Assembly: GCA_027533425.1 (NCBI GenBank) | Contig: JAPZUD010000006.1 | Location: 248,001-312,000 of the forward strand | Reading direction: 5' to 3' | Length of the DNA stretch: 64,000 nucleotides | DNA from: Beijerinckiaceae bacterium | GTDB taxonomy: Bacteria; Pseudomonadota; Alphaproteobacteria; Rhizobiales; Beijerinckiaceae | Part shown: positions 26,546 to 29,789 of the stretch, piece by piece | How the letters are laid out: every line of letters starts with the position of its first letter | How positions within the stretch are numbered: position 1 is the stretch's first letter | Position numbers and translations under genes: made by a program | The notes under the pieces: model-generated | Told to the model about the DNA's origin: nothing | The model's input: the letters and a program-made list of their open reading frames with translations, nothing else | The model's database searches: none

Positions 26546-27196
26546 TCAGCGCAGGGACTGCGCGAGGAAGAGACCGCCATGATGCAGCCCGCCGGCATCG
26601 ATCCCGTGGGCCGTGCCGACGGAAAGATGCCACTGGCAGGGAATCTCGGCCTTGCCGAGATGCTCCATCGCATCGAACAGCGCATCGACCGGGATGATCT
26701 CGTCCCGGTCACCATGGACGAGCAGGATCGGCGGCTTGCCCTTCGCCTCGGCCTTGAGATGCTCCGGCCCGACGAGATGGCCGGAATAGCCGATGATCGC
26801 CCCCGGCATCGCGGCGCGGCGCAGGCCGACATGCAGCGCCATCATCGCGCCCTGGCTGAACCCGACCAACGCCATCCGGTTCGGCGCAACCCCCGTCCGT
26901 GCCAGTTCCTGCTCGAGAAAGGCCTCGAGATCCGGCCCGGCCTGCTGGCACCCGCGCCACCGCTCGGACGGATCGCGCATGGTCAGCGGCCACCATTGCC
27001 GGCCGGTCGGGGCCATGCCGCAGGGCTCGGGTGCATGCGGCGAGACGAAGGCCGTATCGGGCAGGAGGTCGGCCCAGCTCTGGCCGAGATCGATCAGGTC
27101 GTTCCCGTCCGCGCCATAGCCGTGCAGGAACACGACCAGCGAACGTGTCGTGCCGGATTTCGGCTTCAGGCGCGGACCATCAAGCGGGCGGGGCAT
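26546..27196 (-). CDS. Alpha/beta hydrolase, phospholipase/carboxylesterase family
   Basis: A 216-residue esterase of the PldB/YpfH type. VVFLHGYGADGNDLIDLG forms the oxyanion region, GFSQGAM the nucleophile elbow, HGDRDEIIP the catalytic Asp and GTAHGID the His. ATG 27196 begins MPRPLDGPRLKPKSG, where homologues start; the ORF-track extension overlaps upstream sequence without support. No signal peptide, so cytosolic. It follows the membrane fusion protein gene on the same strand 94 bases downstream and may be co-transcribed. Substrate is unknown; members act on short-chain or lysophospholipid esters. Confidence 0.9.
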   Translation of the reverse strand: MPRPLDGPRLKPKSGTTRSLVVFLHGYGADGNDLIDLGQSWADLLPDTAFVSPHAPEPCGMAPTGRQWWPLTMRDPSERWRGCQQAGPDLEAFLEQELARTGVAPNRMALVGFSQGAMMALHVGLRRAAMPGAIIGYSGHLVGPEHLKAEAKGKPPILLVHGDRDEIIPVDALFDAMEHLGKAEIPCQWHLSVGTAHGIDAGGLHHGGLFLAQSLR

Positions 27197-27290
27197 GGCA
27201 AACCTCGGCAGGAAATCCCGGAGGCTCTTCCCTTCGCTGAAGACGGCGCGATGCGCAAGGTCTCCGGAGCAAGCAGGGGCAAGGCCCCTG

Positions 27291-28754
27291 TCAGGAGCGC
27301 GGCGCCGCCGGCTGGCTTTCGAGGACCAGATTCTCGCCGGGAGCGAGATCCTCGCCAAGGATCTCGGTATAGCGCCCGTCCGACAGCCCGGTCAGCACCT
27401 GGACAGGGCGCGGCTGGCCGCGATCATCGAGCACATACACGCGCCCGACTGCCACCGGGTTGCGCCGCTCGCCGCTGGTCCGGTTGCGCCGCGCCTCCTG
27501 CAGGGCCCGGTAGCGCAGGCGCTGCTCCGGCGTCAGCACCGGTTCGATGGCACGGGTGAACGCCTGCCGGGCCGCGCGCCTCTGCGCAGGATCCTGGCCT
27601 GCAGCCTGCAGATCGGCGCGCATCGTCTCGGCATGGCGGCGTACCTCGCGGATCTGCTCCGGCGTGAGCGAGAGATCCTCCTTCATCGCCTCGAACCAGG
27701 CGACGCCCTGCGCGGAGACGGCCGGATCGAGGAAGGGGCCGGCGGGGTTATCGGTCTCGACCGAAAGCGTCAATGCCGGCCGGGTGCGCCCTGCCGCCGG
27801 GGTATCGGTCCTGGCCGGCGGCTGCCAGCGCAGGGCGGCATTCGGCACGCGCAGCACTTCCTGCCGCCGGTCAGTGATGATGCGCAGGCTGCCGGGCATG
27901 CCGGGCAGGAGGGCAAGATCCTCGTTCGGCACGTCGATCGCCAGCCGGTAGGAAACCTTCCCGTTCGCCTCCTGCGGCTCGGGGCCGATCCGTTTCAGCC
28001 GCCCGCGGAAAATCCGCTCCGGATGGGCGGCCACGGCAATCTCGGCCTCCTGGTCCGGCCGCAGCCGGCCGGTCTCGGCCTGGTCGATCCCGGCCTGCAT
28101 CTCGACAAGGCGGAGGCTGCGCGCCAGCACGAAAAACGGGCCGGCCGGGCTGACATTCTGCCCCGTCTCCACCGCGCGGGTCAGGATGACCCCGTCAAAC
28201 GGCGCACGAAGTTCCGCCATCGCCAGCGCCGCCTCGCTCTCCTTGAGGCGGATCGATTCGCGGTCGATCCGTGCCCCGGCAATCGCCTGCTGGGCCTCGG
28301 CGAGGCGGAGATCGGCCTCGACGCCGGCGAGAGGTGGCGCATCGGGCAGCGCGCCTGACCGCGCCCGACCCATCTCCAGCCGGGCCCGCTCGACCTGCGT
28401 TTCCGCGAGCGCCCGTGCCGCCCGCGCTTCCGCCAGTGCCGCCCGGGCCTCGTCCCGCCGCGCCAGAAGGGGCACCGTATCGAACCGCGCCAGCACCTGC
28501 CCGGCCCGGACCGGATCGCCCGTATCGACCAGAAGCTCGATCACCTGCCCGGGGAAGGGCGCCGGCAGATGGGTGACGTCGCGCGCGGCCAGCACGCCTT
28601 CAGCGCTGATGCTGGCAAGGATCGGTCCCCGGCTGACACGCTCGGTGCGATAGGAAGGCGGGGCCTCGGCCGCAGGGCGGCCCTGCCGCGAGGCAACAGC
28701 CCAGCCCCCGAGCCCGACCGCGCCGGCCAGCACGAATCCGACAAGCATTCTCAT
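27291..28754 (-). CDS. Orphan membrane fusion protein with a Spy/CpxP-like LTPEQ insertion
   Basis: A 487-residue HlyD/MacA-type adaptor with an N-terminal membrane anchor (VGFVLAGAVGLGGWAVA). The barrel-sandwich halves are at about 62-92 (APFPGQVIELLVDTGDPVRAGQVLARF) and 182-205, around a coiled coil of about 80 residues; a beta-barrel follows to about 300. Between residues 310 and 436 an extra block interrupts the membrane-proximal domain. It contains LTPEQ twice (363-367 and 407-411) in long helices, the LTxxQ hallmark of Spy/CpxP periplasmic chaperone-like proteins. The C-terminal strand VGRVYVLDDRGQPRPVQVLTGLSDGRYTEIL resumes the adaptor. No pump permease or ABC gene is adjacent. ATG 28754 has GGAG upstream. 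Confidence 0.82.
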   Translation of the reverse strand: MRMLVGFVLAGAVGLGGWAVASRQGRPAAEAPPSYRTERVSRGPILASISAEGVLAARDVTHLPAPFPGQVIELLVDTGDPVRAGQVLARFDTVPLLARRDEARAALAEARAARALAETQVERARLEMGRARSGALPDAPPLAGVEADLRLAEAQQAIAGARIDRESIRLKESEAALAMAELRAPFDGVILTRAVETGQNVSPAGPFFVLARSLRLVEMQAGIDQAETGRLRPDQEAEIAVAAHPERIFRGRLKRIGPEPQEANGKVSYRLAIDVPNEDLALLPGMPGSLRIITDRRQEVLRVPNAALRWQPPARTDTPAAGRTRPALTLSVETDNPAGPFLDPAVSAQGVAWFEAMKEDLSLTPEQIREVRRHAETMRADLQAAGQDPAQRRAARQAFTRAIEPVLTPEQRLRYRALQEARRNRTSGERRNPVAVGRVYVLDDRGQPRPVQVLTGLSDGRYTEILGEDLAPGENLVLESQPAAPRS

Positions 28755-28859: not shown

Positions 28860-29789
28860 TCAGTGCCGCCGGTTCTGGTTGAAGACCATCAGCGCGACCA
28901 GCGGTTCCGCTGCGGCGCCGAACGCCGCCTCGATGGCCGCGATTCCGCCGGCGCTGACCCGCTCGACTTCGCTCCGGGCCGCCTCGATGCCGAGCAGGCT
29001 GACAAAGGTGCCCTTTCCGGCCGCGGCATCCTTGGCGACGGCCTTCCCCACCAGGGCGGCATCCCCCTCGACATCGAGCAGGTCATCACGGATCTGGAAA
29101 GCGAGACCCAGGGCCTCGCCATAGGCCGTGAGCGCCGCCCGTTGTTCCGCCGTCGCCTGCGGCGCCATCAGCGCCCCGGCCTCGACGGCGAACCGGATCA
29201 GGGCACCGGTCTTCAGCGCCTGGAGATGGCGGATTGCCGCAAGATCCAGCGGCTGCGGCGCAGCATCGAACCGGCCTTCCGCCGCGAGATCGAGCAATTG
29301 CCCGCCGACCATGCCATCAATGCCCGAGGCCCGCGCCAGGGCGGAAACGAGGGCCACCTTCACCGCCGGCGGCAAGGTGACGGCGTCGGAGGCGACCATC
29401 TCGAAAGCCAAGGTCAGCAGGCCATCCCCCACCAGGATCGCCGTCGCCTCGTCATAAGCGCGATGCACAGTCGGCTGGCCACGGCGCATGTCGTCATTGT
29501 CCATCGAGGGGAGGTCGTCATGGACCAGCGAATAGCAATGGATCGCCTCCAGCGCCGCCGCGACCTGCAGCGGCGCCTCGCCCGTCACGCCGAAGAGCCG
29601 GGCCGATTCCAGCACCAGATAGGGCCGCATCCTTTTGCCGCCGGCGAAGGCGGCATGACGCATCGCCGCCACCAGCCGCGGCGGGCGGCCCGGCCGGTCG
29701 AGCCACCCGGCAAGGCAGGAATCGACCGCGCGGGCATGGTTTTCGAGCCGGCTGGCAAGGGCGGAAAGGATGGCGTCGGTTTCGGTCAT
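28860..29789 (-). CDS. ispA: Polyprenyl synthetase (farnesyl diphosphate synthase type)
   Basis: A 309-residue trans-isoprenyl diphosphate synthase. The first Asp-rich motif is DDLPSMDNDD at 91-100 and the second DDLLD at 235-239; GGKRMRP and the LKTGALIRFA stretch are also present. Length and the residues before the first Asp motif (CYSLVH) suit a short-chain enzyme such as farnesyl diphosphate synthase; geranylgeranyl product is possible. It acts in the cytosol downstream of the MEP pathway, to which ispG in this window belongs. Divergent from rpmF; monocistronic as far as visible. Confidence 0.93.
   Translation of the reverse strand: MTETDAILSALASRLENHARAVDSCLAGWLDRPGRPPRLVAAMRHAAFAGGKRMRPYLVLESARLFGVTGEAPLQVAAALEAIHCYSLVHDDLPSMDNDDMRRGQPTVHRAYDEATAILVGDGLLTLAFEMVASDAVTLPPAVKVALVSALARASGIDGMVGGQLLDLAAEGRFDAAPQPLDLAAIRHLQALKTGALIRFAVEAGALMAPQATAEQRAALTAYGEALGLAFQIRDDLLDVEGDAALVGKAVAKDAAAGKGTFVSLLGIEAARSEVERVSAGGIAAIEAAFGAAAEPLVALMVFNQNRRH

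Follow-up and report, generated by a model that had tools for sequence, protein, structure and literature searches.

The window analysed here is a 64,000-nucleotide stretch of contig JAPZUD010000006.1 from a Beijerinckiaceae bacterium (assembly GCA_027533425.1), and it encodes a membrane fusion protein (adaptor) of the MacA type that has lost its pump genes. Sequence matches make certain the assignment of this 487-residue protein to the MacA/RND_mfp/HlyD type of adaptors. The gene occupies positions 27291-28754 of the minus strand, a strand that the first-pass annotation left unstated in calling it an HlyD/MacA adaptor; the plus-strand frame at these positions contains no gene of adaptor kind. 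The adaptor is an orthologue of MacA proteins encoded beside macB in sister species and is under purifying selection. It carries a helical module related in sequence to the LTXXQ proteins, which include the periplasmic chaperone Spy. We propose, with a probability of roughly 0.45, that the orphan outlived its ATP-binding cassette (ABC) exporter and has been repurposed as a membrane-tethered LTxxQ/Spy-like binding protein, either a holdase or a stress sensor.

Loss of the pump genes can be read directly from the locus. In ten sister species the gene order at exactly this place is ispA-macA-macB(ATPase)-macB(permease)-esterase-aldolase-DUF1476 (one series ended after the ATPase gene owing to a contig end), and in the window and three relatives having adaptors 79-91% identical it is ispA-macA-esterase. 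In three other species of the genus (G192, G227, and G217; loci L079, L080, and L081) ispA adjoins the esterase gene, both macA and macB having been lost. A small scan of contigs for related loci gave four loci, of which only two were close relatives. The earlier description of the adaptor as an orphan without an adjacent pump permease, ABC gene, or outer-membrane factor was confirmed by inspection of the neighbouring genes, which are ispA, a carboxylesterase, an HpcH/HpaI aldolase, and DUF1476. Nor is a MacB orthologue left elsewhere in the orphan genomes, the top permease match in G000 having an E value of 2e-10 (27% identity) versus 1.7e-256 in G179. The features of the locus are as follows.

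28860..29789, minus strand: ispA-like polyprenyl synthase, the conserved upstream neighbour.
27291..28754, minus strand: MacA/HlyD-type orphan adaptor of 487 residues, ATG at 28754, with a GGAG-like ribosome-binding site immediately upstream.
28665..28754, minus strand: N-terminal hydrophobic segment seen in the sequence (residues 1-30), presumed by analogy with MacA to be an inner-membrane anchor.
27867..28574, minus strand: duct, composed of the lipoyl and beta-barrel parts (residues 61-100 and 181-296), from profile matches and the variability comparison.
28215..28454, minus strand: alpha-hairpin of 79 residues (101-180), with predicted helices at 94-132, 143-162, and 164-197.
27471..27710, minus strand: LTXXQ/Spy-related module, predicted to have four helices (residues 349-428), within the membrane-proximal domain, from profiles and structure prediction.
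27654..27668, minus strand: first LTPEQ (residues 363-367), at the predicted start of module helix 2.
27522..27536, minus strand: second LTPEQ (residues 407-411), at the predicted start of module helix 4.
27315..27446, minus strand: C-terminal strands of the membrane-proximal domain (residues 437-480, GRVYVLDD...GLSDGRYTEI).
27197..27290, minus strand: 94-bp gap to the esterase gene, the site of the macB ATPase and macB permease genes in sister species; no macB remnant was detected within it.
26546..27196, minus strand: carboxylesterase/phospholipase-like gene, the conserved downstream neighbour.

Horizontal replacement of macA was considered, as a first tree of few taxa put the orphans beside the outgroups. 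In the wide adaptor tree the orphans are sister to the pump adaptors of the genus (support 0.999) and in the flanking-gene tree the four orphans group with G192 (support 1.0), which is nested among them. The orphan adaptor branch is long, 0.88 versus 0.20 for the flanking genes, and we read the outgroup placement in the small tree as long-branch attraction. Vertical loss of macB is preferred because the wide tree makes the orphans sisters of the genus's adaptors and the locus is syntenic; horizontal replacement was therefore rejected.

The orphan matches the RND_mfp profile TIGR01730 at 1e-41 (143 bits, above the cut-off of 94.9) and HlyD_D23 at 1.2e-20 (74 bits), and its closest PDB match is MacA (7.2e-19 over residues 32-308). 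Its score against the MacA equivalog NF008606, 91 bits, is below the curated cut-off of 342, as is that of a pump-linked sister (101 bits). The final strands of the membrane-proximal domain come shortly after the strand LRVPNAALR in adaptors of the MacA type. In the orphan an insert of ~130 residues lies between VPNAALRW and GRVYVLDD, and consists of a Pro/Ala-rich linker (residues 313-348) followed by the helical module (residues 349-428). The two LTPEQ motifs reported by the first-pass annotation to be about 40 residues apart are at residues 363 and 407, a spacing of 44. That this spacing is the same as in Spy/CpxP proved incorrect: in a Spy orthologue the motifs are 73 residues apart, and other LTXXQ proteins have spacings of 57-76. 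Coincidental occurrence of the motifs was ruled out by their conservation in homologues, by shuffled-profile controls, and by chance counts: a protein of this composition is expected to contain 6.9e-4 occurrences of LTPEQ, and two never turned up together in any of 200,000 shuffled sequences. The module is present in every adaptor of the family that was aligned, and so is not absent from homologues, nor is it predicted to be disordered. When the orphan was given to AlphaFold as a single sequence the model was poor overall (mean predicted local distance difference test score, pLDDT, of 48) and was not used in fold searches; the module helices were confidently predicted at 349-361, 365-385, 389-403, and 409-427. 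Predicted alone together with two close relatives the module gave four helices having pLDDT values mostly of 80-89. Each LTPEQ opens a predicted helix (helices 2 and 4) and the helix order matches that of Spy, a small ATP-independent dimeric chaperone of four helices with a basic concave surface (PMC8144458) and two LTxxQ motifs (PMC4791398). A metal-sensor reading of the ZraP/CnrX kind was set aside, as the module has no Cys and only one His.

To relate the module to known proteins a profile (A1) was built from 30 homologous modules, in 29 of which LTXXQ was detected at E values up to 1. The top match of A1 in the whole PDB is E. coli Spy (3oeo, 1.8e-6; 5wnw, 3.5e-5). Five stand-alone LTXXQ proteins, chosen by their match to A1, also scored 31-46 bits with the profile, and because those five were obtained through the profile match it is the PDB match that provides an independent test. 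Controls were far lower: the maximum was 11.3 bits for column-shuffled profiles (200 trials), 0.7 bits for the reversed profile, and 4.3 bits for the coiled hairpin of the adaptor. Two homologous modules among those checked, L023 (26.1 bits) and L031 (25.9 bits), exceed the gathering cut-off of the LTXXQ family PF07813 (24.3 bits). Adaptor modules and stand-alone Spy-like proteins are further linked by sequence because the module profile directly recovers the stand-alone Spy-like gammaproteobacterial proteins L138, L141, and L142. By sequence, then, the module is related to the LTXXQ proteins, Spy included, and a Spy-like fold is plausible. One separate stand-alone LTXXQ (Spy/CpxP-like) protein is encoded in the genome of the window (L150:4765-5346(-), contig C11 near 894354; 43 bits to PF07813), unlinked to the orphan locus.

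The fusion had been put forward as a feature of the orphan, but it is widespread. Wherever a neighbourhood was fetched in the family outside the orphan clade, the module-bearing adaptor gene adjoins macB ATPase and macB permease genes; the partner genes of the sisters are MacB by NCBIfam, split into these two genes. The same linkage was found in most neighbourhoods examined from other families of the order (in two only the ATPase gene was detected) and in the alpha- and gammaproteobacterial families found by the module profile. The fusion inside the membrane-proximal domain is thus ancestral to a widespread MacAB pump group across the Alpha- and Gammaproteobacteria; loss of macB subsequently produced the orphan. 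A literature search found no paper on efflux adaptors with an LTXXQ module, although only open-access papers were covered and a description may exist elsewhere.

Another adaptor fusion was seen among family relatives. Three single frames of 1,110-1,367 residues (L170:172-4215(+), L167:2-4102(+), and L169:3009-6338(-)) join a P-type cation ATPase to a C-terminal HlyD-type adaptor, one of them with a hemerythrin domain between the two, and L168:1-4164(+) is a frame of similar appearance. Such ATPase-adaptor fusions look unusual.

Over the whole gene, the four orphan species have a ratio of nonsynonymous to synonymous substitution rates (dN/dS) of 0.16-0.22; the insert taken separately has 0.13-0.19, and the flanking genes about 0.03-0.15. 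These values and the intact frames in all four species rule out a pseudogene. The distribution of variable sites has shifted. Variable columns make up 39% of the duct and 20% of the module in the orphans, whereas in two pump-linked sister sets the figures are 8-21% and 43-63%, respectively. The duct is the fastest-changing part of the protein in the orphan clade, with 46% of lipoyl columns variable versus 8-17% in the sisters. Mean identity of orphans to sisters tells the same story, that of the lipoyl and barrel parts having fallen from 0.82-0.94 to 0.41-0.44 and that of the module only from 0.55 to 0.46, and the duct/module interaction was greater than zero in all 5,000 bootstrap resamples. 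Constraint has moved from the duct to the module in the orphans, a result that is strong but not final because alignment columns are phylogenetically non-independent and only four orphan species were compared. As selection protects the module more than the pump-building parts, a new envelope job for the orphan is probable.

The first alternative to repurposing is that the orphan works in trans, still serving in tripartite pumps with another inner-membrane transporter and one of the outer-membrane factors of the genome, the LTxxQ module being part of that pump. The hairpin is 79 residues long in the orphans and 138 residues in 25 of 26 pump-linked family homologues (L013-L038), the other having 125 residues; these pump-linked hairpins greatly exceed that of E. 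coli MacA in length. Although 59 residues shorter than in the sisters, the orphan hairpin is about the length of that of E. coli MacA, so the orphan may still dock with TolC, and the notion of a hairpin too short for such docking was dropped. The hairpin is also fairly conserved among the orphans (24% variable columns), and the genome encodes several outer-membrane factors and other MacB-like permeases. The TolC-docking motif at the hairpin tip is RLS (RxxxLxxxxxxS) (PMC3391258). The pump-linked homologues carry an RLS-like tip whose position is constant (S or T in 18 of 26, A in place of S in 8), whereas the strict motif is absent from all four orphans, in which the R...L......A-like tip stretch RSGALPDAPPLA keeps the R and L, lacks the S, and has prolines within it. 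The nearest MacB-like permease checked has its own adjacent adaptor, and the parts changing fastest in the orphans are the lipoyl and barrel parts. On balance we regard function in trans as unlikely.

A second possibility is that the gene is a relic on its way out, persisting by inertia after macB loss with a module that no longer has a role. The long orphan branch and the absence of the gene from G192, nested as it is among the orphans, are in keeping with decay, but the intact frames and dN/dS values of four species are not, and the module sites are more conserved than in the pump-linked sisters; we consider this improbable. More doubtful still is a purely structural element, a coiled spacer or dimer cradle of the membrane-proximal domain without client binding and with only an ancestral likeness to Spy, since the motifs were retained in orphans lacking a pump and long flexible linkers are atypical of a rigid spacer, even if the module is short, lacks a significant fold match, and occurs in the family's adaptors whatever their substrate.

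Several observations weigh against a Spy-like binding role. Foldseek searches with the module gave no significant match (best E = 0.33; Spy had a template-modelling score of about 0.30 and E = 1.6); the proposal of a Spy/CpxP-like module made in the first-pass annotation is partly borne out, by the profiles and the predicted helices. PF07813 gave 7.7 bits with the whole orphan protein and 18.4 bits with the module, both under the gathering cut-off. The module has a net charge of only about +4 and is shorter than Spy, and its chaperone activity is putative. The close relative G192 lacks the adaptor gene, which is therefore dispensable in that species, and to these points must be added the few orphan species and non-independent columns of the constraint comparison.

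The repurposing that we favour would start from a MacA adaptor that was passed on vertically and belonged to an ABC exporter of the MacAB type. In the pump the module, carried on a flexible linker within the membrane-proximal domain near the adaptor-MacB contact, probably binds a peptide or amphipathic substrate at the periplasmic entrance or keeps it unfolded. The macB ATPase and permease genes disappeared in the ancestor of a small clade of four species in the Beijerinckiaceae, after which the duct drifted, with the module and membrane-proximal domain remaining under constraint. The orphan may now be an inner-membrane-tethered holdase or stress sensor for periplasmic or membrane-proximal polypeptides, acting as Spy/CpxP proteins do; we infer both its binding of clients and any role in sensing. 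The wider scenario is more tentative: that deletion of the exporter left a tethered Spy-like chaperone or stress sensor in which selection moved to the LTxxQ module, and that in the MacAB pumps of the group a Spy-like module for handling substrates is built into the periplasmic entrance. If the module does handle clients, a broad group of MacAB pumps would have a chaperone-like unit in the adaptor, which would bear on the uptake of periplasmic peptides or proteins as substrates. The orphan clade amounts to a natural experiment, for its pump has been lost and constraint has moved to the module, and therefore the function of the module is separable and directly testable.

Four known systems come closest. 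MacA adaptors that carry the LTxxQ module and are linked to a pump, from Hyphomicrobiales and from other Proteobacteria (L013-L038, L110-L121, and L156-L166), have the same architecture and insertion point as the orphan and are orthologous to it within the genus. They differ in adjoining macB and, within the family, in nearly always having the 138-residue hairpin with its RLS-like tip. E. coli MacA of MacAB-TolC (PDB 5nik and 3fpp) is the best PDB match and has a hairpin of similar length, but at 371 residues it aligns only to orphan residue 308 and leaves no room for the insert; it accompanies a single-chain MacB, whereas both macB genes have been lost beside the orphan. Spy/CpxP proteins (PF07813; PDB 3o39 and 3oeo) share with the module a pair of LTxxQ motifs, each at the start of one helix in a unit of four (predicted in the case of the module), although they are free, soluble, stand-alone proteins of the periplasm and the module is embedded in a membrane-anchored adaptor. 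BesA of Borrelia is, like the orphan, an atypical adaptor that departs from the TolC-docking hairpin plan, but BesA has a pump and no hairpin at all (PMC3807786), whereas the orphan has kept the hairpin and lost the pump.
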